Shown here piece after piece: positions 1 through 28,898 of a stretch of DNA of 64,000 nt. Origin of the DNA: Segetibacter koreensis DSM 18137 (GTDB lineage: Bacteria > Bacteroidota > Bacteroidia > Chitinophagales > Chitinophagaceae); assembly GCF_000374045.1 (NCBI RefSeq), contig NZ_KB893315.1, forward strand, positions 270,843 to 334,842, in the 5' to 3' direction. Every line of letters starts with the position of its first letter. Positions within the stretch are counted from its first letter, which is position 1. The notes below the pieces were generated by a model. The model searched no databases and was not told the DNA's origin. It was given only the letters and a program-made list of their open reading frames with translations. The position numbers and the translations under genes are program-made.

Positions 1-922
1 ATACCTTCCAACAGTCTTCTTTCTCCCGGCTATGGGGCGAATCTAAAATAATGCGAATGGCAAAAAGGTCGTACACTTCCTCGAACGCAACCCCTTTTTT
101 CTTTATCTTATTCCAGATAGAGTGAATACTTTTTGGACGCCCGTGAATTTCGAAATTGAAACCACCCTGGATTAATTTATCCTTTACCGGTCTTATAAAC
201 TCATTTATATATCTTGTGCGCTCACGTTTTGTTTCAGCAAGTTTCCTGGCGATGTCCTTGTACGTGTCGGGCTCCATGTACTTCATCGACAGGTCTTCGA
301 GTTCTGTTTTTATGTTGTACAAGCCCATTCTATGAGCTAAAGGAGCGTATACCCAAACTGTTTCACTTGCAATCTTTAACTGCTTTTCACGCTTCATGCT
401 GTCAAGGGTACGCATGTTGTGGAGCCGATCGGCAAGCTTAATTAAAATCACCCGCGGATCATCGGTAAGAGTAAGTAAAATCTTTTTAAAATTTTCTGCT
501 TGCTGGCTGGTATTGGTATCAATAACATTTGAAATCTTGGTAAGGCCATCCACGATCCTTGCTATTTCATGACCAAATTCCCTCTCCACATCTTCGAGAG
601 TTACATCTGTATCTTCTACTGTGTCGTGCAGCAAAGCACAAATAGTGCTTCGCACGCCTAAACCTATTTCCTCAACACAGATCATGGCAACGGCAATGGG
701 GTGAATTATATAAGGTTCCCCACTTTTTCTACGCATGGTTTTATGAGCCTCTGCTGCTATTTCAAAAGCATGTCTTACCAGTTCTTTATCACCTTTCTTT
801 AGTTTCTCTCTTAACGCACGGAGCAATGCACGGTAATGCCTCAGGATTTCTTTCTTTTCCTGCTCTTCGTTCAAATTATATTTTGGCACCTGTTGCGATG
901 CTACTATTACTTGCTCTTCCAT
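1..922 (-). CDS. rel: Rel/SpoT-family (p)ppGpp synthetase/hydrolase, N-terminal part (cut by window edge)
   Basis: The start codon is ATG at 922-920 and the gene runs off the left edge, so only about 307 N-terminal residues are visible. The translation carries the HD hydrolase domain of Rel/SpoT proteins: a HAFEMAAEAH helix, the HD pair in LLHDTVEDTD, and the conserved IKLADRLHNMRTL stretch. It then enters the synthetase domain (GRPKSIHSIWNKIKKKG, then YDLFAIRIILD). Family knowledge: these enzymes make and degrade the stringent-response alarmone in the cytoplasm. The HD residues are intact, so hydrolase activity is expected; whether the synthetase is active cannot be judged because its catalytic part, TGS and ACT domains lie outside. 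It is 139 bases downstream of the M1 peptidase on the same strand, so cotranscription is possible but unproven. Confidence 0.93.
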   Translation of the reverse strand, partial: MEEQVIVASQQVPKYNLNEEQEKKEILRHYRALLRALREKLKKGDKELVRHAFEIAAEAHKTMRRKSGEPYIIHPIAVAMICVEEIGLGVRSTICALLHDTVEDTDVTLEDVEREFGHEIARIVDGLTKISNVIDTNTSQQAENFKKILLTLTDDPRVILIKLADRLHNMRTLDSMKREKQLKIASETVWVYAPLAHRMGLYNIKTELEDLSMKYMEPDTYKDIARKLAETKRERTRYINEFIRPVKDKLIQGGFNFEIHGRPKSIHSIWNKIKKKGVAFEEVYDLFAIRIILDSPHSREKEDCWKV

Positions 923-1061
923 TCCACTTACTTATCCTACGAATTTACGAAAATAGAACCAATTTGACCGAACCAGGAAATTGTACGAGCGAGGAATTAT
1001 GGGATCTTTGGGAAATTATCGAAACCAGCACTGCTTACAAAGAAGAAGTATAACCGGCTTG

Positions 1062-3011
1062 TTATCTTCCAATCCAAGTATTATTTGCCTCATTAATATC
1101 GGGCAATCGCTTATCGGGATCTATAACAACGGATGTTATCTTTTCGGTTGTATTTACCTTAAAAGTCCACTTACCTCCATGATGCCAAACTTCGACCGGT
1201 AATTTTACAACCTGCGCCTGACCGCCAACTGTAGTTATCTTTACAGTCAACGGCATTGGCATCATTTGTAGCAATTCAACTGTTATTAAAGCTCCTTTTG
1301 AGCTGTCACTGTTTACGTACTGCACTCCGCTAACACAAGCATCAAATTTCCAGTTATTTATAAACCATCCGCGCCAAAACCAATCCAACGTTTCACCACT
1401 ATAGTTTTCTATAGCATGAAAAAAGTCCCAAGGTGTAGGATGTTTAAATGCCCAGCTATTTATATAATAACGAAAAGCGTTATCAAATCTTTCCGGCCCA
1501 AGTATTTCTTCACGTAATATTTCTAAGCCCATCCCCGGTTTTGAGTAACTATTGATACCCCAGTTTTTCGGTGTGTTTACATCAGGAAGATTAAAAATAC
1601 TTTCAGTGCTGTCGGAAAAATACTGCTTGGCGGGTATATACCTGCTCGTAGTGTCGTTTCCATATTCCCCGTTATTAAATGCCGTATTGGCAATACTATT
1701 GATAAAAGTATTAAAACCTTCGTCCATCCAAGCATATTTACGTTCATTGCTGCCTACTATCATGGGAAACCAATTATGTCCAAGTTCGTGGCTTGTAACA
1801 CCCCAAAGACTCTTTTTTACAGCCCTTAGACTACAAAATACGATGCCTGGGTATTCCATTCCCCCTACCCGTCCCGCAACGTTTACTGCCACGGGATAGG
1901 TGTACGGATACCACTGCTTTGAATAATGTTCTATAGCACCTTTTACGTATTCCGTAGACCTTTGCCAAGCAGTATCGGCCGCAGTTTCTACCGGATAAAC
2001 CGACATTGCTAAGGCAGTTTTGTTATTAGGAAGATTTATTCTGGCAGCATCCCATACAAAGGCTCTGCTTGCTGCCCAGGCAACATCTCTTGCATTATGG
2101 CATCTAAATTTCCAGGTTTTGTTTTTCGTAGCCTGTTTCGTCGAAGCATTGTCTACTTCACTTACATCACGTATGGTAACAGTCTGATCACTTCGCCTTG
2201 CTTCCTTCAACCTGCTTATCTGAACAGGAGTTAGTACTTCGTTCGGATTTTGTAGTTCACCTGATCCAACTATAATCTCATTTTCGGGAGCAGTAATGTT
2301 ATATTCAAAATTGCCATACTCAAGATAAAATTCACCCTGGCCAAGGTAAGGCAAGGTGTTCCATCCCAGTACATTATCAAAAACACACATCCTCGGATAC
2401 CATTGAGCCACTTCATATATCCAGCCGTTTTTAGTTTCTATTCTTCCTAACCTGTCTGTGCCATATTCGGGAATTGAAAAGGAAAAATCAATCTTTATCT
2501 GAATTGAATCTCCATTTGCCTTTAGCGGCTGTGGCAATTGTATCTGGAGTCTTGTATCACTTATGTAATAATCAGCCTTTGATTCTTTTCTACTTCTTAT
2601 AATACTAACTGAAGAAATATTATATCCACCGTTAAAATTTTGATTTGCCCATCTGCCTCCCGCTATGGTAGTCTGAGCAACCCCTCTTGATTGTAAGCTG
2701 TAAATATTCTGATCGGCTTGCAGCCATAGAAAAGGCAGACTTTGAGGACTATTATTTTTATAAGTGATAAGTACATTGCCCGTTATTGAATGATTGCTAT
2801 CGTCTAACGTTGCGTTGATTTTATAATTCGCATTGTTTTGCCAATATTTTGGTCCTGGTGTACCAGCCGCAGTTCTTATATCATTACCATAATTAGGATA
2901 AAACTCCGGATTGAAAGCCTGTTGCTTGTCAAAAATAGAAACCTGGGCTGTCAAACCATTGGTAAATAATAAAAAGACAAAAAGATAAATAATAGAAAAA
3001 AGTGTTTTCAT
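1062..3011 (-). CDS. M1-family zinc metallopeptidase, exported
   Basis: This 649-residue protein starts with a Sec signal peptide (about 22 residues, ending near TAQ). The zinc site is visible as H408-E-L-G-H412 followed by E431 in WMDEGF, the HExxH-x18-E signature of gluzincin M1 peptidases. The usual GAMEN exopeptidase motif is replaced by GGMEYPG near residue 377, a form common in Bacteroidota M1 paralogues. A C-terminal beta-rich region follows the catalytic domain. Inference: a periplasmic or surface aminopeptidase taking part in peptide scavenging. The altered GAMEN makes exact substrate preference uncertain. It lies upstream of and on the same strand as the Rel/SpoT gene. Confidence 0.9.
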
Positions 3012-3153
3012 ATCAGTTATTACAAAGCTTTCAATGGAGAAAGCAGGAAAAAAGATGAGTGTTACAAAAGAATTGCAAATATCCTTCCGCTAATGATATA
3101 AAATACTTTTTTAGTTTTTATAAATACTGTTTTTTATTTTTATTAAAACCCCC

Positions 3154-3161
3154 TACTTTTG
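3154..3161 (+). promoter_or_regulatory. Candidate -7 box (TAnnTTTG) for tRNA-Leu
   Basis: TACTTTTG matches the Bacteroidota -7 consensus TAnnTTTG and sits 7 bases before the first base of the tRNA, where transcription should begin. No clear TTTG -33 element is seen at the expected spacing. Confidence 0.5.
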
Positions 3162-3168
3162 CAACCCC

Positions 3169-3250
3169 GCGGATGTGGCGAAATTGGCAGACGCACCAGA
3201 CTTAGGATCTGGCGCCGCAAGGCATGTAGGTTCGACCCCTATCATCCGCA
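3169..3250 (+). tRNA. tRNA-Leu (anticodon UAG)
   Basis: The 82-base gene folds as a class II tRNA. The acceptor arms are GCGGATG (3169-3175) and CATCCGC (3243-3249), with discriminator A at 3250. The anticodon stem CCAGA/TCTGG encloses the loop CTTAGGA, giving anticodon TAG (reads CUA). A long variable arm (GCC-GCAA-GGC) and a T-arm with TTCGACC follow. CCA is not encoded, as expected for this phylum. A TAnnTTTG box precedes it and a hairpin terminator follows. Confidence 0.97.
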
Positions 3251-3255
3251 CTTAT

Positions 3256-3283
3256 AAACCTGGTTGTAACTGACCAGGTTTTT
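3256..3283 (+). terminator. Intrinsic terminator after tRNA-Leu
   Basis: A 9-bp perfect stem (AAACCTGGT at 3256-3264 with ACCAGGTTT at 3273-3281) with an 8-base loop is followed by T residues, directly after the tRNA. Confidence 0.75.
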
Positions 3284-3432
3284 CCGTTTTAAGGGCATGA
3301 GGCAATCAGATATCTAAGAGGATAAACAGAATATTCGACAAACCTGCTAAAGTGAAAGTGGCATTTCCGAACTCCATTCTTGTTTCAAAGGGTTAAAAAT
3401 AATAATAACGTATTTTTGTTCGTGGTAAAACT

Positions 3433-3440
3433 TACCTTTG
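3433..3440 (+). promoter_or_regulatory. Candidate -7 box for trigger factor
   Basis: TACCTTTG fits TAnnTTTG and lies 71 bases upstream of the trigger factor ATG. A TTTG at 3415-3418 could be the -33 element, but the 14-base gap is shorter than the usual spacing. Confidence 0.4.
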
Positions 3441-3511
3441 CAGCCCGAAAAATGTGCTGACCTTTTTTTGTCGCATATTAACTTTTTAAAAACTCACACA
3501 AAATAATAAGT

Positions 3512-4873
3512 ATGGCTACTGTTTCGAGGGAGAATATCGGGTTACTAAATGATAAACTGACTGTTACCCTTTCTAAAGATGATTACCTTCCGGCATTTGA
3601 ACAATCCATTAAAAAATATGCTAAGACCGCTAACATTCCTGGTTTTAGAAAGGGAATGGTTCCCGTCGGCATGATCAAGAAAATGCATGGAAGCAGCGTT
3701 TTTACCGACGAAGTACTTAGAACAGTCGAAAAAGAGCTTACAAAATACATACAGGAGGAAAAACCTGATATGATTGGTCAGCCTTTGCCACTTGATGTAG
3801 ATGCACGGCAATTGGATATGAACAATCCTTCTGACTATGCCTTTGCTTTTGAAATTGGACTTAAGCCTGAAATTAATATTGACCTTAAAAATATTACCGT
3901 TACGCGGCATAAGGTAGATATAACAGAAGGAATGATTGACGAAGAAGTTGAGCGTTTAAAGGTTCGTTATGGGAAAATGACAGAGCCAGAAGAAGTGACT
4001 ACTGAAGACAATGTACTGAATGTAACTTTTGCAGAAAGCGATGCTGAAGGCAATATAATTGAAGGCGGTATTAATAAAGGAAATTCACTGCTGCTTAAAT
4101 ATTTTACTCCCGGTTTTCGTGACCAATTAATGGGAAAGCGAAAGGATGATACAATAGTATTGCAATTAAATACAGCTTTTGACGATAAAGAAAGAGAATG
4201 GATAGCAAGTGATTTGGGAATTGCAAAAGATGACACGGCATCATTAGAGAAGCACTTCAAAATGACTATATCCAAAGTCGGGCTCGTTGAAAAACCGGAA
4301 ATGAATGAAGAATTTTTTTCACAGGCTTTTCCAGGTAGGGAAATTTTGAATGAAGATGATTTTCGTAAGGCAGTTAAAGAAACATTAGAACAGCAGTGGG
4401 ATGCTCAAAGCCGTAATCAACTCCACGACCAGATTTATCATCAATTGGTTGAGAACGTGCAAATGGAGTTTCCCGAAGAATTTTTAAAACGGTGGATGCA
4501 AAAAGGCCAGGAACAGCCAAAAACTGCCGAAGAGGCAGAGAAGGAATATCCTTCTTTTGCTAATTCTTTAAAATGGACCTTAATAACTAATCAATTATCA
4601 AAGCAGTTTGATATAAATGTAGAACCTACAGAAATAAAGGATTTTGCTAAGCAACAGATAATGGGTTACATGGGTGCACAGAGCCTGGAAGATGCTCCAT
4701 GGTTAGATAGTTATGCTGACAGTATGTTGAAAGACCAAAAGTTTATTGAAAATACCTATTTTCAATTACAAACCAACAAGTTGTTTGATGCTCTAGAACA
4801 ACAGGTAAACGTAATTGAAGACCTGGTTACACCTGAAGAATTAGCAGGCATGCAGCATCATCACAGCCATTAA
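3512..4873 (+). CDS. tig: Trigger factor, ribosome-associated chaperone
   Basis: The protein has 453 residues, the usual length for trigger factor. Its N-terminal domain contains the ribosome-docking signature GFRKGMVP near residues 45-52, equivalent to the GFRxGxxP loop of the family. The middle PPIase-like region is strongly diverged, with FTPGFRDQLMGKRKDD being recognisable, and the C-terminal half is a long helical arm domain. The protein ends in a His-rich MQHHHSH tail. Family role: it binds ribosomes near the exit tunnel and shields nascent chains. It is the first gene of a proteostasis block: its own terminator follows, then clpP1, clpP2 and clpX on the same strand, the gene order tig-clpP-clpX seen in many bacteria. 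Confidence 0.95.
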   Translation: MATVSRENIGLLNDKLTVTLSKDDYLPAFEQSIKKYAKTANIPGFRKGMVPVGMIKKMHGSSVFTDEVLRTVEKELTKYIQEEKPDMIGQPLPLDVDARQLDMNNPSDYAFAFEIGLKPEINIDLKNITVTRHKVDITEGMIDEEVERLKVRYGKMTEPEEVTTEDNVLNVTFAESDAEGNIIEGGINKGNSLLLKYFTPGFRDQLMGKRKDDTIVLQLNTAFDDKEREWIASDLGIAKDDTASLEKHFKMTISKVGLVEKPEMNEEFFSQAFPGREILNEDDFRKAVKETLEQQWDAQSRNQLHDQIYHQLVENVQMEFPEEFLKRWMQKGQEQPKTAEEAEKEYPSFANSLKWTLITNQLSKQFDINVEPTEIKDFAKQQIMGYMGAQSLEDAPWLDSYADSMLKDQKFIENTYFQLQTNKLFDALEQQVNVIEDLVTPEELAGMQHHHSH

Positions 4874-4891
4874 TGCAGAAGAAATATAAAA

Positions 4892-4927
4892 AATAAGGTC
4901 AGGCGAGGGTCTGGCCTTATTTTTTTG
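4892..4927 (+). terminator. Intrinsic terminator after tig
   Basis: The stem ATAAGGTCAG (4893-4902) pairs with CTGGCCTTAT (4911-4920) with one G-U pair and an 8-base loop, and is followed by a run of T. It separates tig from the clpP genes. Confidence 0.85.
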
Positions 4928-5079
4928 CTATATCTGCTAATCAAAAAAAAGTGTGTATTCTTTAATACTTTGCAACTTATATGCTATTTTGTCGTTTATT
5001 ATGTTTTGCACAGTATTTGAAACATAGCTCATTCAATCAGTTAACCCTCTTAAAGTCACTTTAAATAAATTATCGATAA

Positions 5080-5796
5080 ATGAATTTTGGAAAAGAATTT
5101 GAAAAATACGCTGTTAAAGACCGGGGCATAAGCAGTGCTACCCTGCACAATTTTCAGCAGCACCAGGTAACAAATCTTACCCCTTATATAATAGAAGAAA
5201 GGCCACTGAACGTAGCAAGTATGGACGTATTCAGCAGGCTGATGATGGACAGGATTATATTTTTAGGTGAGGGTATAAATGATTATGTTGCTAATATAGT
5301 AACAGCTCAGTTGCTTTTTTTGGAAAGCACCGATCGTAGCCGCGATATTCAAATGTATATAAATAGCCCCGGTGGCAGTGTTTACGCTGGCTTAGGCATT
5401 TACGATACAATGCAGTTTATCGGGCCAGATGTATCAACTATTTGTACCGGTATTGCAGCAAGTATGGGTGCAGTGTTGATGTGTGCGGGAGTTAAAGGTA
5501 AACGTACGGCATTAAAACATAGCCGGGTGATGATGCACCAGCCCAGCGGTGGTATAGGTGGGCAGGCTACCGATATACTTATCACAGTAAACGAAATCAA
5601 GAAGATTAAAAAAGAATTGTATGACATTATTGCGTTTCATACAGGAAAATCTTCAGAAGAAGTTGCCAAAGACAGCGACAGGGATTTCTGGATGAGTGCT
5701 GAAGAAGCAAAACTGTATGGCCTGGTGGATGAGGTATTGCTGATCAATCCACGCAAACAAAAGAAAGACAATAATTTACCCGATACTTTCAAATAA
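5080..5796 (+). CDS. clpP: ClpP protease subunit, paralogue 1
   Basis: The 238-residue protein belongs to the S14 serine peptidases. The catalytic triad is visible as S128 (AASMG), H153 (MMHQP) and D202 (DRDFW). The N-terminus is about 25 residues longer than in E. coli ClpP, which may be a propeptide or an N-terminal extension. The family forms a barrel-shaped protease that degrades unfolded proteins delivered by ClpX. It lies only 14 bases upstream of a second complete ClpP (5811-6440), and clpX follows, so the two probably share a transcript and could assemble into a mixed tetradecamer (inference). Confidence 0.95.
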   Translation: MNFGKEFEKYAVKDRGISSATLHNFQQHQVTNLTPYIIEERPLNVASMDVFSRLMMDRIIFLGEGINDYVANIVTAQLLFLESTDRSRDIQMYINSPGGSVYAGLGIYDTMQFIGPDVSTICTGIAASMGAVLMCAGVKGKRTALKHSRVMMHQPSGGIGGQATDILITVNEIKKIKKELYDIIAFHTGKSSEEVAKDSDRDFWMSAEEAKLYGLVDEVLLINPRKQKKDNNLPDTFK

Positions 5797-20550: not shown

Positions 20551-21564
20551 TTAAGAAAGAAAAGAGGCAAAGTTTAAAATCCAATATAAGAGCATTGCAA
20601 TTAAAGCGCTTACGGGTATAGTTAACACCCAGGCCCATACCAAACCGATAGTTACTCCCCACCTTACGGCGCTTAATCTTTTTGTTGCACCTACGCCTAT
20701 AATTGAGCCGGTAATGGTGTGTGTTGTACTTACAGGAATGCCTAGTAAAACGGTTAAAAAGATGGTTAACGCTCCGGCACTTTCTGCACATACACCCTCT
20801 AACGGAGTTACCTTGGTTATCCTGTTTCCCATTGTTTTTACAATTCTCCAACCTCCCGACATTGTACCTAAAGCAATTGCCGCATAACACGACAGAGGCA
20901 ACCAATCAGGCATTTTAAAAGCGTCCAGCCCCTGATTATTTCCCTGTGTTTTAGAATAAAACCAAAGAGCGGTAAAAATCAAACCCATAGTTTTTTGAGA
21001 ATCTCCACCACCGTGGGCGAGACTAAGCGCAGCCGAGGAAATAAGTTGAAATCTTTTAAACCTCTTTTCGGCTCGATATGGTTTGCTTTTTTTGCTGATA
21101 GTGACCACGAATATGGTAACAATAAATCCAAGAATTAAACCGATAAAAGGAGATAAAACCATAAAGACAACGGCTTTAATTATAGGAGCACTGTTAACAC
21201 CGGCAAACCCACCAGCGGCTATAGCCGCACCTGCAAGGCCGCCAATAAGTGTATGGGAAGAACTTGAAGGAATACCGTAGTACCAGGTAAGTAAATTCCA
21301 GAATATGGCAGCTACAGTTGCAGCTAAAATTAAATGGTAGCTGATTAGCTCAGATGAGACAATACCCGCAATTGCACCTGCCACTTTATGTTCCTTAAAA
21401 ACGAAAAAGGCAATAAAATTAAATGCTGCGGCCCATAATACAGCTAAAAAAGGTGTAAGCACTTTTGTTGATACAATAGTAGCAATCGAATTTGCAGCAT
21501 CATGAAAACCATTTGTAAAATCAAAAACAAGAGCCAAAATAATTATTATAGAAAGTAATAGCAT
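20551..21564 (-). CDS. pitA: PiT-family inorganic phosphate transporter
   Basis: The 337-residue integral membrane protein has the duplicated PiT signatures: FTNGFHDAANSIATIVST near the N-terminus and PVSTTHTITGSIIGVGATKR in the C-terminal half. About ten hydrophobic helices are visible. Family role: low-affinity, cation-coupled phosphate uptake across the inner membrane. A longer frame begins at TTG 21615, but the hydrophobic family N-terminus starts with the ATG at 21564. It is convergent with the E2 gene. The periplasmic phosphatase PafA nearby could supply its substrate, although the genes are not linked in an operon. Confidence 0.92.
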   Translation of the reverse strand: MLLLSIIIILALVFDFTNGFHDAANSIATIVSTKVLTPFLAVLWAAAFNFIAFFVFKEHKVAGAIAGIVSSELISYHLILAATVAAIFWNLLTWYYGIPSSSSHTLIGGLAGAAIAAGGFAGVNSAPIIKAVVFMVLSPFIGLILGFIVTIFVVTISKKSKPYRAEKRFKRFQLISSAALSLAHGGGDSQKTMGLIFTALWFYSKTQGNNQGLDAFKMPDWLPLSCYAAIALGTMSGGWRIVKTMGNRITKVTPLEGVCAESAGALTIFLTVLLGIPVSTTHTITGSIIGVGATKRLSAVRWGVTIGLVWAWVLTIPVSALIAMLLYWILNFASFLS

Positions 21565-21795
21565 AGACGTAATATCATAAGAAAAGGAACAAAGATGCCG
21601 ATATGTATTGTACAAAAAAATAAATAATAATGGGTAACGTTTAATTTATATATCACCTACTGCTATTTACACTTGCATGTTTATACAATATTTCCGCTTT
21701 GTTCCTTTTCCTGATTATGATTCATTAAAAATTATAATTAAAAACAAAGATCATTTAATACAATCGGCCGCAAAAGTATAAAATGAAGTTCATTT

Positions 21796-24700
21796 TTAAT
21801 TTTCAATCTCTACGCCTTCTTCTATTTCATTTGATGGATGTTTTAATAATGAACCAATTCCTTTTAAATCTCCAAAAATTTCTGTACTGTCTTTTGCATT
21901 CAGGCCTTCCATTACATTTATAAACTTTGTTTTCTTTTCTGCGTCCAGAGCTACTACATATACGCCCTTGGTTGAATGAACAATGGCAGAAGCAGGAACG
22001 ACATAACTGTTATTAGATGACTTTACAGGTATTTTAACTTCAGCATACATTCCCGGCTTTATTTCTCCACCATATGAGGGAACGTCAAATTCTATTGCTT
22101 CGGATCTTACGTTCTCATTTATAACACCTGCTCTTCTGCTTACTGCGGCTTGAAAAGTCTTATCTGGATAAGCATTTAATTTAAACTCTACTTTATTCTC
22201 TTTATTAATGGATGAAACAATTGTTTCCGGTATATTAACTACCAGGCGAAGATGATTTACTTGCTGCAGTGACAGCATAGGTTTGTCTCCATTTTTTGTA
22301 TTTGGACCAATTAAAGCGCCGGGGTGTATATTACGTTCAGTGATAATACCGCTAAAGGGCGCTCGTACCTGTAAATAGTCCTTCATCTGTCCTAAACCAG
22401 TTACTGTTGATTTTTCTGCTTCAACATTTGCAGCATCAGAAGCCATTTTTGACCTGGCACTTTCAAGATCAAATGGAGAAACAGTGCCGGCAGTTTTGCT
22501 TGCCTGCAATAATCTTTCATACCTGTCTTTGCTTATCAAATACATTTCATTGGCCTTGGCAAAATTTGACTTAGCAGTTTGAACCTGCTGATTGATTTCA
22601 GGAGCATCTAGTGTCATTAAAAGTTGCCCTTTTTTTACAACACTACCGCGGTCTACAAATACATTTTTTATATAACCGCTTACCTTCGGAAAAATATCTA
22701 CCGATTCAAAAGCGGATAATTCACCCGGTAATTGTACGTACGAAGAAATTTTCTTTTGAGATACTGCTGCCAGTTCTCCCTTATCTTCTACTGATGAAGC
22801 CTTTGTTGCCGATACATTTTTTTGTGTTAAATCAACAGGTTTTTGTTTAGGAGAGCAGGAAATTGCAAAAAGAGAAATTACTAGTATTAATGTATTTAAT
22901 GGTATAAGAGAAGAGGAAGGTTTCATTGTTTTAAGTTTAGGTAAAAGAGAAGGGCTTTGAAATGAAGATTTACTTTGTATCCAGGCGAAAGCAAGGGGTA
23001 AAATATACAGGGCAGCAAAGGTTGAGGCAACCAACCCACCAATGACTGCACGGCCTAACGGAGCAGTTTGTTCACCTGCTTCCCCCATTCCTGACGCCAT
23101 TGGTATCATTCCTGCAATCATGGCGAGGCTTGTCATCAAAATCGGGCGAAGCCTTATACTTGCTGCTACTACCGCAGCTTTTTTTGCATCCCGGTATTCT
23201 ATTCTTAGCTTTTCTGCATTGGTTACAATTAAAATAGCGTTTGCAACGGACACACCAATTGACATGATCATGCCCATATATGATTGAAGATTAAGTGTAG
23301 AACCAGTTAGTAGTAACAAAAGCAATGAACCAAGAATAACCGCAGGCGCCGTTACCAGTACTACAAGCCCCAGTTTGACAGATTCATAAGTAGCGGCGAG
23401 TAATAACAATATTACAATAACCGCAAACATCAGTCCTGTTTGCAGGCTTCCGAGCGTTTCAGTTAAAAGGTCTGACATTCCTTTCAACGAGATGGTTACA
23501 CCTTTTTGTGGTTCTCCCAATTCTTTGATTATTTTTTGTACATCATTTGTCGCGGTGCCTAAATCTTTATTTGAAAGATTTGCATTTACTGTAAGAAACC
23601 TTCTTGGACCGCTTCTGTCATATTCGCCTGCTGCTTTTACCATTTTGAAATCTGCTACGTCAGATAAGACAGGTCTGTTTCGTCCTTTAATTAGTGGAAT
23701 TTCTTTTAACTGGTCCATTGTACTCATAGCATATTCAGGAATCTGTACCTGCACCTGGTAAGTGTATGCTGCCTTTTCATCTAACCATTGGTTTTTTTCT
23801 GTAAACCTGCTTGAAGAAGTACTTGCAGTAACTGACCTTGCGATTTCCTGTACACTTAATCCAAATTGAGATGCTTTAAATCTATCGATATTAATGGCAA
23901 TGGTAGGGAAAGCTAAAGGTTGCTGTATCTGAACATCTCTCAAATATGGAACTTTGCTTAATTTCTTAACCAATGTATCTGCATAGCGATGTATTTGATC
24001 CAGGTCTTTGCCCGCAACTCTTACTTCAATAGGAGTTGTAGCACCCTGGCTCATTATTTTATCGGTTAGATCAATAGGCTCAAAAACGATTGTAGCCTCG
24101 GGCAGCTTATAATGAATATTTTTCCTTAGTGCATCTTTCAATTCATCGAGGTTGACTTTATAATTTTCATCCAGGTTAACCTGTAACACAGCTTCATTGG
24201 TTCCACTGTTAAACACATATAAATTACTTGTTCCATAACTGCTGGGCACTAGACCAACATAGGCGGAAGTAACAGCTACGTGATTATTTACTGTACTATC
24301 AATAATTTTTAAAACAGATTTTAATGCCGCTTCTGTGTTTTCTAACCTTGTACCGTCTGGCTCTTTCAGTCTTATCTGAAATTGTCCGTTGTTCGTTCTT
24401 GGCATCATATCACGGCCGATAATATTCATACATACCGCCACTAACCCAACTACCACCAACAAATAAATTAGAACGATAGGCTTTCTTTTAGGAACCATCC
24501 GGTTTAATATATTAACAAAACTCATCTTTACCCTTTCAAAAAAATCATTACTCTCCGGATGTTTTATTTCTTCGTTAAAATGATGGCCGATTTGTTCTAT
24601 TTCAATATTGTCCAGCGCCTCTCCGGCATGCGCATGATACTGACCATGTTTATATTTATATTTCTCTTCCTTTAACAGCCAATTTGATAATATGGGAACC

Positions 24701-26139
24701 AAAGTTTGTGCGAGCAAATAAGATATTACCATTGCAAAACCAATAGAAAGTGACAAAGGCAAAAACATGGCTTTTGGTACACCTGTCATTAAAAAAGACG
24801 GAGCAAACACTGCCAGTATACATAGGAGTATAAGCAGCAATGGAAAAGAAATTTCCTGGCATGCGTCCAGAACTGCAACTCTCATACCTTTACCCATTTC
24901 AAGATGCTGGTGAATGTTTTCGATCGTCACTGTTGCCTGGTCAACCAATATTCCTATTGCTAAAGCAAGGCCGCTTAACGTCATTAAATTTATTGTTTGC
25001 CCTGCCAGCTTCAACAAAAGAACAGTTGATAAAATTGAAATCGGGATAGTAATAATAACAATGACGCTGCTTCTCCAGTCTTTAAGAAAAAGCAAAACCA
25101 TTAGACCAGTTAAAATTGCGCCTAATGCACCTTCCGTTATCAGGCTTTTAACTGCATTTATTACAAATACAGATTGGTCAAAAGCATAGTCTAATTTTAT
25201 GTCATCGGGCAATAAACTTTGCATTTCAGGTATGGTTGCCTTCAACTTTTGCACTACTTCCCATGTAGATGCATCTGCAGTTTTAATTACCGGGATGTAA
25301 ACAGAGCGCTTACCATTGATTAGCGCGTAATCAACGGTTATATCTGCTGCATCTGTAACTTTTGCAACGTCGCTTACAAATACAGTTGCTCCGTCTTTGG
25401 TTTTTAAGGGAATGTCTGAAAAGTCATTGACAGTCTTTTCTAATGTATTAATTGTTGTTACATACATTAGGTTATCTGACCTTAGATTACCTGAAGGAGA
25501 CATAACATTTGCCTTAGCTATTTTATCAACTATTTCATCAGGTGAAATATCATAACTGCGAAGCTTATCCGGATCGATGCTAACTACAACCGAGCGGGAG
25601 TTTGCCCCAAAAGGCGGCGGTGCAGATAAGCCAGGCACAGTACCAAACATTGGCCTTATCCGCGTAGCTGCCATGTCATAAATTTCTTTTAAGGACTTTG
25701 TTTTGCTTGAGAAGACCAATTCGCCTACCGGTAAAGAAGATGCGTCGAAACGGACTACCTGCGGAGGCAATGCACCGGGGGGAAAAAACTTCATTGCCCT
25801 GTTTACCTGCAAAGCTACCTGGGCCGAAGCCTCTGCCATGTCAGTACCCTCGTAAAAGCTTAATTTCAACAAGGTTAAGCCGGTTATGTTTTTACTTGTA
25901 ATGTTTTTAACGCCATTAACATATAAAAACTGGTCTTGCATACGGGTAGCAAAAAAACCTTCCATTTGCTGGGGAGACATGCCGCCATAAGATTCTATCA
26001 CGTAAATGGTAGGAAGATTAAGTTTGGGAAATATATCAATCGGGACGCTTTTTATGGATATTACAGCAAATAAAAGAAAACTGCAAACCAACACGATAAC
26101 AGTAATAGGCCTTTGAAGAGCTGCCTTAACTAAATTCAT
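21796..26139 (-). CDS. RND efflux permease fused in frame to a lipoprotein-type membrane-fusion protein
   Basis: One 1447-residue frame holds two normally separate proteins. Residues 1-1071 are a full RND inner-membrane permease (MNLVKAALQRPITVIVLV, GILVDQATVTIEN, RPILMTSLAMIAG). Residues 1072-1447 are a complete membrane-fusion protein: M1072 starts a lipoprotein signal peptide ending in FAIS-C1095, followed by biotinyl-lipoyl halves (VSGYIKNVFVDRGSVVKKGQ, VRAPFSGIITERNIHPG), a helical hairpin and beta-barrel. The proton-relay site is altered: AcrB D407/D408 align with D400/Q401, and K940 with A966. TolC lies 22 bases upstream in the same operon. In another frame TAA codons sit just before M1072, so the fusion may come from a small indel; a sequencing error is not excluded. 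Confidence 0.9.
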   Translation of the reverse strand: MNLVKAALQRPITVIVLVCSFLLFAVISIKSVPIDIFPKLNLPTIYVIESYGGMSPQQMEGFFATRMQDQFLYVNGVKNITSKNITGLTLLKLSFYEGTDMAEASAQVALQVNRAMKFFPPGALPPQVVRFDASSLPVGELVFSSKTKSLKEIYDMAATRIRPMFGTVPGLSAPPPFGANSRSVVVSIDPDKLRSYDISPDEIVDKIAKANVMSPSGNLRSDNLMYVTTINTLEKTVNDFSDIPLKTKDGATVFVSDVAKVTDAADITVDYALINGKRSVYIPVIKTADASTWEVVQKLKATIPEMQSLLPDDIKLDYAFDQSVFVINAVKSLITEGALGAILTGLMVLLFLKDWRSSVIVIITIPISILSTVLLLKLAGQTINLMTLSGLALAIGILVDQATVTIENIHQHLEMGKGMRVAVLDACQEISFPLLLILLCILAVFAPSFLMTGVPKAMFLPLSLSIGFAMVISYLLAQTLVPILSNWLLKEEKYKYKHGQYHAHAGEALDNIEIEQIGHHFNEEIKHPESNDFFERVKMSFVNILNRMVPKRKPIVLIYLLVVVGLVAVCMNIIGRDMMPRTNNGQFQIRLKEPDGTRLENTEAALKSVLKIIDSTVNNHVAVTSAYVGLVPSSYGTSNLYVFNSGTNEAVLQVNLDENYKVNLDELKDALRKNIHYKLPEATIVFEPIDLTDKIMSQGATTPIEVRVAGKDLDQIHRYADTLVKKLSKVPYLRDVQIQQPLAFPTIAINIDRFKASQFGLSVQEIARSVTASTSSSRFTEKNQWLDEKAAYTYQVQVQIPEYAMSTMDQLKEIPLIKGRNRPVLSDVADFKMVKAAGEYDRSGPRRFLTVNANLSNKDLGTATNDVQKIIKELGEPQKGVTISLKGMSDLLTETLGSLQTGLMFAVIVILLLLAATYESVKLGLVVLVTAPAVILGSLLLLLLTGSTLNLQSYMGMIMSIGVSVANAILIVTNAEKLRIEYRDAKKAAVVAASIRLRPILMTSLAMIAGMIPMASGMGEAGEQTAPLGRAVIGGLVASTFAALYILPLAFAWIQSKSSFQSPSLLPKLKTMKPSSSLIPLNTLILVISLFAISCSPKQKPVDLTQKNVSATKASSVEDKGELAAVSQKKISSYVQLPGELSAFESVDIFPKVSGYIKNVFVDRGSVVKKGQLLMTLDAPEINQQVQTAKSNFAKANEMYLISKDRYERLLQASKTAGTVSPFDLESARSKMASDAANVEAEKSTVTGLGQMKDYLQVRAPFSGIITERNIHPGALIGPNTKNGDKPMLSLQQVNHLRLVVNIPETIVSSINKENKVEFKLNAYPDKTFQAAVSRRAGVINENVRSEAIEFDVPSYGGEIKPGMYAEVKIPVKSSNNSYVVPASAIVHSTKGVYVVALDAEKKTKFINVMEGLNAKDSTEIFGDLKGIGSLLKHPSNEIEEGVEIEN

Positions 26140-26161
26140 ATAAGTATATTTAAGAAGATGA

Positions 26162-27538
26162 TTATTTGGGGACCTGGTTTACAAAATCAGCTATCATTCC
26201 TGAAGATGCCGCCTTTTGAAGTAAAGAACGCCATACATTATTATTTGCAACCGTTACATCTACAGATGCCCTGTTTAATACGGTAAATGCCTGTATTAAT
26301 TCTGTTAACGGCGCTAAGCCTGCCTGGTACCTGGCATTTGATAAATTATATGCCTCTAACGCCGCCTTATATTGAACCGGAGCTAACCTGGTTTGCTGTA
26401 AGGCATACTGATATTGAAGATTGGCATTTTTCATCTGTTTTTGCAATCTTAACGTTTGCTCATCTAACCTGTACCGCGAACTTTCAATGTCCTGCTCCGC
26501 GGCCTTGTATTCCTCCCTTTCTTTGGCCAAAGACAAAATATTACACTTAACAGCAACTGCAGCCATGTAATTATAGGTTTGATAAGGAATTCCGCTCATA
26601 GCGTCACTGCTATACTTCTTCGAGCTTTTATTAATCCCTGACCCCCTGGCCCAGCCCATACCTAAGATATTAATGGTAGGCAAGGCTGATTTTTTTATAA
26701 CCAGTGAGCGGTCAACCTGGTTTTGCAACATTTGCTTATATAAATTAATAACCGGGTTATTATTAATAGCAGAATCACCGGAAATAGCCAGCGGAACTCT
26801 GGTAAGAAAAGTGGTTGTATCTACATTGAGACTATCCACAGAAATATTGCTAAGCTGAGATAATTGTATTTTTTGTTCTTCAACCAGTTGTTTGCTTTGT
26901 AATAAAGCTAACCCCGCTCTTGCCACTTCAGCATTTGATGCCGAGGAGTCGAGACCTGGTAATAGACCTGCCTGGGTGTGGCTTTGAACATATGTTTGAA
27001 AAACCTTTGCTCTTTCAAGGTTGGCTTGTTGCACTGAAACAAGTTTTTCGCTTAGCGCCAATAACAGGTAAACATCAATAGCCCGCACCTGTAGTTGAAA
27101 GACTTCGTTATTATAATCGGCTTTAGCGACCTGAACCTGCGAGTTAGCAAATTGAACTGACTGCTTGACTTTTCCAAAATTGAAAGCATGCCAATTAACC
27201 ATCAGTGTTGTAAAACTTCCGAAAACCGGGTTATAAATATTTTGATCTCTAACACCTCCCGATGTAGAAATAGCGGTTCCTTCATTTGAAAAATACGAAC
27301 CTTCTAACCCATTATTTGTTGAATATTGATATTGATCAGCCGCTGTTAACTCTGGTAAATAATCCTTCCTTGCAGACTGAAGACGGTAAGAAGCAGCTTT
27401 TACAGATGCTTCTTTTGCTTTTATAGATGGATAATCTTGTGAAATTTTTTGTAACAGATCAGGGATACTAATTGTATTACGCTGACCATACACTCTTATA
27501 GTGCCTAATAATATAAAAAGACATACAATTACTCTCAT
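26162..27538 (-). CDS. TolC-family outer membrane efflux protein
   Basis: The 458-residue protein has a signal peptide (MRVIVCLFILLGTIRVYG) and the long alpha-helical, Gln/Ala-rich repeats of TolC channels, with the repeated pattern of LQ-A-YNL and NLEYAL-like segments near each half end. Family role: outer-membrane duct for tripartite efflux. It is the first recognised component of the operon: its stop is followed 22 bases later by the RND-MFP fusion gene. Together they make a complete tripartite exporter encoded by only two genes. The exported substrate cannot be deduced. Confidence 0.9.
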   Translation of the reverse strand: MRVIVCLFILLGTIRVYGQRNTISIPDLLQKISQDYPSIKAKEASVKAASYRLQSARKDYLPELTAADQYQYSTNNGLEGSYFSNEGTAISTSGGVRDQNIYNPVFGSFTTLMVNWHAFNFGKVKQSVQFANSQVQVAKADYNNEVFQLQVRAIDVYLLLALSEKLVSVQQANLERAKVFQTYVQSHTQAGLLPGLDSSASNAEVARAGLALLQSKQLVEEQKIQLSQLSNISVDSLNVDTTTFLTRVPLAISGDSAINNNPVINLYKQMLQNQVDRSLVIKKSALPTINILGMGWARGSGINKSSKKYSSDAMSGIPYQTYNYMAAVAVKCNILSLAKEREEYKAAEQDIESSRYRLDEQTLRLQKQMKNANLQYQYALQQTRLAPVQYKAALEAYNLSNARYQAGLAPLTELIQAFTVLNRASVDVTVANNNVWRSLLQKAASSGMIADFVNQVPK

Positions 27539-27595
27539 AAATTATTTTATTTGATTTAAAAAGATTCCTGCAACAATTGCAATAACTTTTTAGAA

Positions 27596-27991
27596 TCAAA
27601 TACGAATAATGGAAAGAGCTAAATAATAATGATTATCAGGAACTATATCAAAAAGCGTAGCTTTTCTTTTTATTTTAAAAGCAAGTTGAGAGAGCAGACA
27701 GGAAAGAGCATACAGATTTTTTTTCAAAAATCTTCTAATTGCAAATAGCCAAAAAATTAATAATTCATTTTCTATTTCAACATGTTCTTCTTCATTATGT
27801 ATTAAATTATTTACATGTAGTACTTCTGGTTTTTTCTTAATGATTTTGCCAATTCCAACCGTGCGAGCCTCAGTTGACCATAAAATAGACGAGAGAGTAT
27901 GTGAGCTAAAAATAATGGCAGGACGTAGTAACAGTAATATCACTGTCAAAATGAAAACACAGTTTAATAACAACTTTTTACCGCCATCCAT
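27596..27991 (-). CDS. Small membrane protein leading the efflux operon, unknown function
   Basis: The 131-residue protein starts at ATG 27991 and ends 57 bases before the TolC gene on the same strand, so it probably leads the efflux transcript. Residues 6-25 (KLLLNCVFILTVILLLLRPA) form a membrane helix or uncleaved signal. A His/Glu-rich patch (HNEEEHVEIENE, about 65-76) precedes a second hydrophobic segment (LLIFWLFAI) and a basic C-terminal half. I do not recognise the family. The acidic/His patch could bind metal, but this is speculation. Whether it is expressed is supported only by its position and coding-like composition. Confidence 0.55.
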   Translation of the reverse strand: MDGGKKLLLNCVFILTVILLLLRPAIIFSSHTLSSILWSTEARTVGIGKIIKKKPEVLHVNNLIHNEEEHVEIENELLIFWLFAIRRFLKKNLYALSCLLSQLAFKIKRKATLFDIVPDNHYYLALSIIRI

Positions 27992-28097
27992 TATTTAAAA
28001 ATAAAACTATAATACAAACTTTAAAAGAGAATAAAAGTATAATTTCCCAAAAATATGATTTAAAGGAGAAATTAAAAATCGAATGTTTTTTATTATG

Positions 28098-28109
28098 AAC
28101 TAATTAGTT
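28098..28109. promoter_or_regulatory. Perfect 12-bp palindrome in divergent intergenic region
   Basis: AACTAATTAGTT is a perfect palindrome lying between the efflux operon (start 27991) and the divergent gene at 28188. It resembles MarR/TetR-type operators in form. No regulator gene is adjacent, so the role is inferred only from its position. Confidence 0.3.
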
Positions 28110-28187
28110 GTTAAAATAATAAAAAAAATTTAACGTTGGTATTATTTTTAAGTCTATTGTATATATGTAAACTTAAATAAAGTAACT

Positions 28188-28898
28188 ATGAAAACATTGT
28201 CAGAAACATGGTTCACCGAAGGTTATATAGATTTTGAATTAAAAAAGTACACTCTTCTCGCCTACCTGACTGAGGTAAATAAATATTTCAATGAGAATAA
28301 ACTGTATCCTCAGTTAGCTGATGTTGTTTTTCATTACAATAACATTGTTTCTTTTCGCGAAAATAAAAAATTTCTGCAGGAGCATTTTCCCAAACAACTG
28401 ACTGATATAAATATTCAAAAACTTCAGTTTGCCTATGAAAGAATGATTGAAGATGATGAATTAATGAAGGAATTGGAAGACATTATACAGTACTCTGCAA
28501 ACAAAATAAAAAACACCATCAAAACAGGTGCAGAGATTTACGAATTTGTTGAAGCGAAGATAACTATAGAACCAGTTGGAATTGTTCCTTTGGATGTAAA
28601 CGAAGGTTATCTCTTTTTAAAAGATGGTAATTATGATGCGACTGTTGTATACCAATACCGCTTAACTTTTTTTGAAAAGCATGATGAGAAATACAGGGGT
28701 ATCCGCACAGATTATATTCACAAATGGCAAAGAACAGTAAGTAACTCACCAGAAAATATAAAAGGCGAATTAATAAAAAACAGGAAAAGTCTTCCAAATC
28801 CTGCGGTATATAATATAGAAACTAACTTAGCTTATCCGATTGAAGAAACTTTATTACCCATAGCTAAAAGAAGTTTTGTAAAATTTATCAGTAAATAA
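28188..28898 (+). CDS. Conserved Bacteroidota protein of unknown function
   Basis: The 236-residue protein is soluble with no signal peptide or membrane helix. The N-terminus SETWFTEGYIDFELKKY followed by LLAYLTEVNKYF, and the segment YPQLADVVFHYNN, look like a widely conserved Bacteroidota family that has no known role; I recognise the pattern but not a function. The middle (residues about 65-110) is helical and charged, and the C-terminal half beta-rich. The C-terminus ends in LPIAKRSFVKFISK. It is transcribed divergently from the efflux operon across a 196-base AT-rich region containing a palindrome. Confidence 0.8.
   Translation: MKTLSETWFTEGYIDFELKKYTLLAYLTEVNKYFNENKLYPQLADVVFHYNNIVSFRENKKFLQEHFPKQLTDINIQKLQFAYERMIEDDELMKELEDIIQYSANKIKNTIKTGAEIYEFVEAKITIEPVGIVPLDVNEGYLFLKDGNYDATVVYQYRLTFFEKHDEKYRGIRTDYIHKWQRTVSNSPENIKGELIKNRKSLPNPAVYNIETNLAYPIEETLLPIAKRSFVKFISK

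Follow-up and report, generated by a model that had tools for sequence, protein, structure and literature searches.

Here, we describe a single open reading frame (ORF) that joins a permease of the resistance-nodulation-division (RND) family to a periplasmic adaptor, found within a window of 64,000 nucleotides of Segetibacter koreensis DSM 18137 (contig NZ_KB893315.1, positions 270,843 to 334,842; coordinates below count from the first letter of this window). The ORF runs from ATG to TAA over 1447 codons with zero internal stops, and the features at this locus are the following:

21796-26139, reverse strand: fused ORF, RND permease plus periplasmic adaptor, 1447 amino acids (reading frame, Pfam and NCBIfam matches).
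22927-26139, reverse strand: permease part, residues 1-1071, with 12 hydrophobic segments and a SPSLLP tail (ACR_tran, hydropathy, PDB match).
22924-22926, reverse strand: internal ATG (M1072), predicted second translation start (start-like context, synonymous-codon signal in the fused clade).
22855-22926, reverse strand: lipoprotein signal peptide, residues 1072-1095, the 13th hydrophobic segment (hydropathy; cysteine in 7/7 fused genes).
21796-22926, reverse strand: adaptor frame from the internal start, a precursor of 376 amino acids (RND_mfp, AlphaFold model, fold match).
26162-27538, reverse strand: TolC-family outer-membrane channel gene (OEP in Pfam).
20551-21615, reverse strand: gene for a phosphate transporter of the PHO4 family, downstream of the fused ORF (domain match).

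The division of this ORF into a permease (residues 1-1071) and an adaptor (residues 1072-1447), proposed in the initial annotation, is borne out by the reading frame and by the Pfam and NCBIfam matches. ACR_tran (PF00873) matches residues 4-1054 with 670.8 bits over model positions 2-1020 of 1021, that is, at full length, whereas the adaptor part holds both the barrel-sandwich domain HlyD_D23 (residues 1146-1366) and RND_mfp (TIGR01730; residues 1123-1427), the latter with 172.1 bits for a cut-off of 94.9. Structure-database matches relate the permease to RND pumps of solved structure (MexB, CmeB, and AcrB among them), the best PDB match being 8yr0 over residues 2-1057. As to the kind of permease, every permease model among the 25 of 40 NCBIfam families listed fell below its own cut-off, including the named kinds RND_permease_2, MdtC, AcrB, and others, with RND_permease_2 scoring best (550.8 vs 1250 bits). 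Simple hydropathy gives 12 peaks before residue 1050, with long gaps at 29-335 and 572-900 that fit two large periplasmic loops. AlphaFold modelled residues 1040-1447 (mean pLDDT 85.8, pTM 0.62) as a complete adaptor that resembles TMexC-like, AcrA, and MexA chains (best E 3.3e-23), with a helix at 1079-1093 and low confidence around 1067-1077 and at 1106-1117. Upstream, the TolC-family gene ends 22 bases from the fused ORF, and an OEP gene stands at the same place in 5 of the 6 other fused loci described below, the contig of the sixth ending there. Scans of 21600-28300 for promoter-like and terminator-like signals yielded no excess over shuffled sequences, and we claim no internal promoter.

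At the junction, the permease tail SPSLLPKLKT continues directly into MKPSSSLIPLNTLILVISLFAISC, in which M1072 is the codon 22926-22924 and C1095, the cysteine of the lipobox LFAIS-C, is the codon 22857-22855. This lipobox fits the pattern PS51257, and the intact lipoprotein signal peptide first noticed between M1072 and C1095 is thereby upheld. The TAA codons initially remarked just 5' of M1072 in one other frame are present as well, and a TGA in the third frame overlaps the ATG of M1072 itself. Over the whole protein, 13 hydropathy peaks are seen: to the 12 in the permease, the signal peptide adds one more at 1077-1093. According to the positive-inside rule, the positively charged flank of a membrane segment lies on the cytoplasmic side; since the stretch from the 12th transmembrane segment to the cysteine carries four positive charges and zero negative ones, it would start in the cytoplasm and the adaptor would lie in the periplasm.

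The search for other genomes encoding such a two-domain protein, suggested in the initial annotation, led to six more species, hence a stop-free fusion in seven: S. koreensis, the genomes G329 and G425, Flavihumibacter petaseus NBRC 106054 (G401, where the loci L132 and L051 encode one identical protein), Chitinophaga alhagiae T22 (L067), G444, and G461. The permeases of the latter six are identical to that of the window at 0.83, 0.84, 0.77, 0.72, 0.74, and 0.73 of positions, respectively, and the mean pairwise identity among the seven amounts to 0.77 for the permease and 0.57 for the adaptor, and drops to 0.39 over the tail and signal peptide. The family, order, and phylum groups were sampled, with about two candidates scored per genome. 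Within the family (394 genomes), at least 3 genomes gave a whole-length stop-free match of this lineage (the window, G329 at 77%, and G401 at 70%), and no further member was found among the matches listed in 396 genomes of the order and 395 of the phylum. Searches by genus found the fusion in 2 of 18 genomes (G329 and G425), in 3 of 79 (G444, G461, and C. alhagiae), and in 1 of the 15 genomes of the genus of F. petaseus; in the genus of the window (10 genomes including its own), the sole other full-length stop-free match is G007, at 31%, which belongs to a second lineage presented below. Because the frame is equally unbroken in the separate assemblies of six further species, the loss of a stop codon through an error of sequencing or assembly, which the initial annotation wished to see excluded first, is rejected and keeps next to no credence, even if the genome is a 73-contig draft and the other frames hold stop codons at the junction. 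The fusion is real and inherited, and it belongs to a TolC-RND-adaptor operon.

It also had a single origin in this lineage and has been retained since. Of 110 orthologue rows kept (14 others being dropped as duplicates [11], for want of an adaptor in the locus [2], or as short [1]), 105 are unfused, with two genes. A tree on permease residues grouped the five fused rows into one clade (support 92), and the seven fused genes formed one clade both in an IQ-TREE phylogeny of 42 rows, 35 of them unfused (SH-aLRT 99), and in a FastTree phylogeny of 112 rows, 105 of them unfused (support 99). No unfused row falls inside this clade, though the spacer before the Met is longer in the Chitinophaga group; its sister clade, which comprises Mucilaginibacter, Pedobacter, Niastella, and others, is unfused in all 46 rows. 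The unfused permease and adaptor genes often overlap or nearly touch, and the adaptor lies relative to the permease in frame 1 in 53 of the 105 rows, in frame 2 in 33, and in frame 0 in 19. At least 41 frame changes are required among the unfused rows over a tree length of 15.54, and 20 in the 46-row sister clade over 5.16. If the frame were free, zero change over the fused clade (length 1.18) would have a probability of about 0.045, or 0.010 with the sister-clade rate, by a rough Poisson estimate based on these minimum changes. Two separate fusions, one in the Chitinophaga group and one in the others, are not supported: the spacer differs between the two, but both trees give one clade, a judgment made with no formal test.

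Outside this lineage, a distant RND permease is fused to an adaptor with the same layout in three species (G345, G340, and G007), at 31-32% identity to the protein of the window. Pfam recognizes the permease and adaptor domains in both proteins tested (G007 and G345), and the join carries a Met, a hydrophobic stretch, and a lipobox in all 4 copies, with a PS51257 fit in 4/4. One of these copies is a second one in G340:

1495-5556 of G340:C78, reverse strand: second fused copy (L225), without about the first 80 permease residues (5' part), possibly broken.

A relative of this second lineage, G155, has two genes whose ends overlap or nearly touch, the adaptor bearing HlyD_D23. From the distance between the two lineages, and from the unfused relatives on both sides, we infer that the second lineage arose by an independent fusion.

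With regard to expression, internal initiation at M1072, which the initial annotation had raised as an alternative, gains support at the nucleotide level from recoding, a synonymous-codon scan, the start context, and a ranking of Met codons, and we consider that this start most likely works. An internal ATG is found in 7/7 fused genes; the four genes of the window's group share one alignment position for it, and the three Chitinophaga-type genes another. Over the seven ORFs, the synonymous-codon scan places the maximum GC deficit at residues 1071-1072 (combined Z 6.6), and all of the 12 top columns among 1,416 fall within residues 1061-1073; the A excess peaks at residue 1073 (Z 5.4), and the folding at the internal start is more open than at random positions (p 3e-5). 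Because amino-acid content could cause this openness, the stretch was randomly recoded following the codon usage of each gene, and this yielded combined Fisher p-values, which take related genes as independent, of 2e-4 for folding, 1.4e-4 for A content, and 2.5e-5 for GC, when 7%, 1%, and 2% of 84 control Met codons from the same genes reached p<0.05 for these respective measures. Openness around the internal ATG is in the top 1-5% of each ORF in 7/7 (percentiles 0.95-0.99), for a median of 0.99 at 109 unfused adaptor starts (duplicates included), and in the window's group it still stands at percentiles 0.97, 0.89, 0.96, and 0.92 among windows of equal GC.

The context of the internal start points in the same direction. 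From -20 to -1, its A and G fractions (0.51 and 0.09) are close to those of 95 unfused adaptor starts (0.50 and 0.06), versus 0.27 and 0.25 at 324 other Met codons. In Flavobacterium johnsoniae, the relevant passages of one study describe A at -3, -6, -12, and -13 as promoting initiation, mRNA structure as mattering, and Shine-Dalgarno sequences as absent (PMC6847099); in the fused genes, A at -6, -12, and -13 reaches 0.71, 0.86, and 0.57, similar to real starts (0.61, 0.72, and 0.60). Scored with a matrix built from unfused adaptor starts, M1072 ranks first of the 44 Met codons of the window gene, and the internal Met also ranks first in G425, F. petaseus, and C. alhagiae. The join Met of the second lineage ranks 1 in G345, 2 and 1 in the G340 copies, and 3 in G007.

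Several observations weigh against a working internal start. In the three remaining fused genes, the internal Met ranks only second (G329), third (G444, where a Met two codons upstream ranks first), and fourth (G461). A at -3 is found in only 0.29 of the seven (2/7) vs 0.56 of unfused starts, and at -9 in 0.14 vs 0.44. Among windows of equal GC, openness falls to percentiles 0.00, 0.33, and 0.52 in the Chitinophaga-type genes, for which only 3, 6, and 33 windows were comparable. Taken alone, the window gene is weak, with a GC-deficit Z of 1.45 (rank 106 of 1,431), an A-excess Z of 0.01 (rank 712), and randomised-codon p-values of 0.055 for folding, 0.634 for A, and 0.102 for GC; its ORF is AT-rich (mean GC 0.39), which leaves little room for a synonymous signal. 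For the second lineage, the test for GC deficit gives a null result (p 0.40) and the A excess is modest (p 0.018). The AT-rich junction could also have other causes.

The lipobox bears on the fate of the long chain. Cys1095 is kept in 7/7 fused genes, where it is the sole column of the signal peptide invariant across all seven, and position -1 is occupied by A, G, or S in 7/7; this cysteine is likewise invariant in all 40 adaptors aligned, the 33 unfused ones among them having been picked by their own [AGS]C. PS51257 fits 4/7 fused genes of the first lineage vs 91/92 distinct unfused ones (98/99 rows with duplicates counted), with a Fisher p of 9e-4 that is generous because the failing fused rows are partly related. 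The control comprised 103 unfused rows, of which 3 without a stop in the locus and 1 without a start (L155) were set aside, leaving 99 with 7 duplicates; as these rows were chosen by [AGS]C, their cysteine and -1 residue are selected and not tested. As judged by this pattern, the lipobox is looser in the fused lineage than in its unfused relatives.

In light of these sequence patterns, the fused gene probably gives two products, a long chain and a separate adaptor. Ribosomes finishing the permease would, for want of a permease stop codon, continue into the adaptor and produce a chain of 1447 residues. Because the permease ends in the cytoplasm, the adaptor's signal peptide would act as a 13th membrane-crossing segment and take the adaptor part into the periplasm. 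The long chain may then be cut at C1095, where Lgt and signal peptidase II might act, or stay joined by an extra helix, the two fates raised in the initial annotation; a flexible linker would allow a tethered adaptor to reach its place. Other ribosomes would begin at M1072, their product being a free adaptor of the ordinary lipoprotein type. Such a topology would go along with a particular stoichiometry, also deduced here. The passages on MexAB-OprM in one source give OprM:MexA:MexB as 1:2:1 (PMC6447562), and the 5v5s entry comprises six AcrA chains for three of AcrB, so that the fixed 1:1 ratio put forward in the initial annotation would, on its own, fit badly with the 2:1 adaptor:permease ratio of these solved RND pumps. 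The fusion alone would be short of adaptor, because MexAB-OprM has two adaptors per permease; each fused chain would supply a single adaptor to its permease, and initiation at M1072 could add a second, suiting a two-adaptor pump. That the layout is a stoichiometry device delivering about two adaptors per permease (one in cis and one in trans), having arisen at least twice in Chitinophagaceae, is a proposal that we hold tentatively.

An unlikely alternative is a neutral accident, in which the stop codon was lost once, the internal start supplies the needed adaptor, and the read-through tail does no harm or is degraded. The apparent activity of the internal start would suit it, as would the small size of the fused clade (7 species found, at least 3 of 394 family genomes) and the frequent overlap or near contact of the unfused neighbour genes; however, the frame has been retained despite a change of spacer length in seven species (P of about 0.01-0.045), every ribosome completing the permease would make the fused chain, and the same layout exists in a second, distant lineage. 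We also find improbable a polyprotein, in which only the long chain is made and a cut by signal peptidase II at C1095 frees a lipidated adaptor at 1:1. In its favour, the cysteine and the small -1 residue are kept in all seven fused genes, all 4 second-lineage copies fit PS51257, the hydropathy topology is compatible, and signal peptidase II is described as processing many RND adaptors in the part of PMC8277102 concerned with them. Yet a polyprotein leaves the start-codon signal unexplained, its output would stay below the 2:1 need, the lipobox is looser than in unfused genes (rows that are not independent), and an internally started adaptor would keep the cysteine anyway. A permanent tether, in which all adaptor comes from the fused chain as in engineered AcrB-AcrA fusions, seems very improbable: engineered RND-adaptor fusions reportedly act as pumps and the lipobox is relaxed in the first lineage, but the cysteine and the ATG are kept, the latter with a start-like context, and six adaptors per pump require another source.

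Other joins of pump genes were encountered. An open-frame figure above 1400 amino acids was rejected as a sign of fusion, as it reads through stops: in 19 of the 20 loci inspected from a longer list, permease and adaptor occupy separate frames, and the remaining one (L251) fuses a permease to a channel. In L251 (C. alhagiae, G434:C13:37000-42000), a frame of 1522 codons at 200-4768 on the reverse strand holds ACR_tran at 3-1031 and OEP from 1103, and where the two meet there is again an internal Met, with an ending that resembles a lipobox (MKIKPVPAVILLLVLAVAGC); this amounts to the same layout with a channel as partner. The genome of the window itself contains an RND permease (ACR_tran) and an OEP in one frame at L040 (2968-7422, reverse strand, G000:C68; 1476 residues scanned), as well as, at L041 (3050-9019, reverse strand, G000:C57), an RND permease split into two pieces, which match ACR_tran positions 2-421 and 417-1020 and flank a gene for a P-type cation ATPase, the whole lying on one strand. 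At L101 (3347-7543, forward strand), where the adaptor is separate, the permease frame extends upstream into OEP sequence over 1398 codons and looks like a joined channel and permease, with an ambiguous base in the contig there.

In our searches of the open-access literature, we saw no report of a natural RND permease-adaptor fusion, nor any precedent of use here for bacterial signal peptidases cutting at an internal site. If our reading is true, this ORF would be a natural counterpart of the permease-adaptor fusion that researchers had to build, with an internal start possibly setting a 2:1 ratio, and it would become testable, in cultured environmental bacteria, whether both RND adaptor positions are equal and whether a lipobox midway in a polytopic protein can serve signal peptidase II as a substrate. 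As in AcrAB-TolC and MexAB-OprM, a permease, a lipoprotein-type adaptor, and a TolC-type channel are encoded in one gene cluster, but in those systems the permease and adaptor are separate chains, whereas here one frame holds both, with the adaptor last. Fusion proteins of AcrB and AcrA were reportedly engineered by Hayashi et al. in 2016. These man-made constructs likewise join permease to adaptor, whereas the natural one has the adaptor's signal peptide as linker and keeps the start codon; linked fusions of adaptor and RND permease have also served for structures, as mentioned in parts of PMC6447562. The L040 and L251 fusions similarly place an RND permease in frame with another exported pump part, but their partner is the channel and not the adaptor. 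The FbcH cytochrome b/c1 precursor of Bradyrhizobium also joins a membrane protein to an exported partner via an internal signal peptide that is cut; it differs by a site of the signal peptidase I type, and we know of no internal start in it. Finally, SctQ/YscQ of type III secretion resembles the two-product arrangement proposed here in that one gene gives a full-length and an internally started C-terminal product, for which the pertinent section of one study proposes a full:(short)2 complex (PMC4295842), but it is a cytosolic scaffold, without membrane crossing or lipoprotein.

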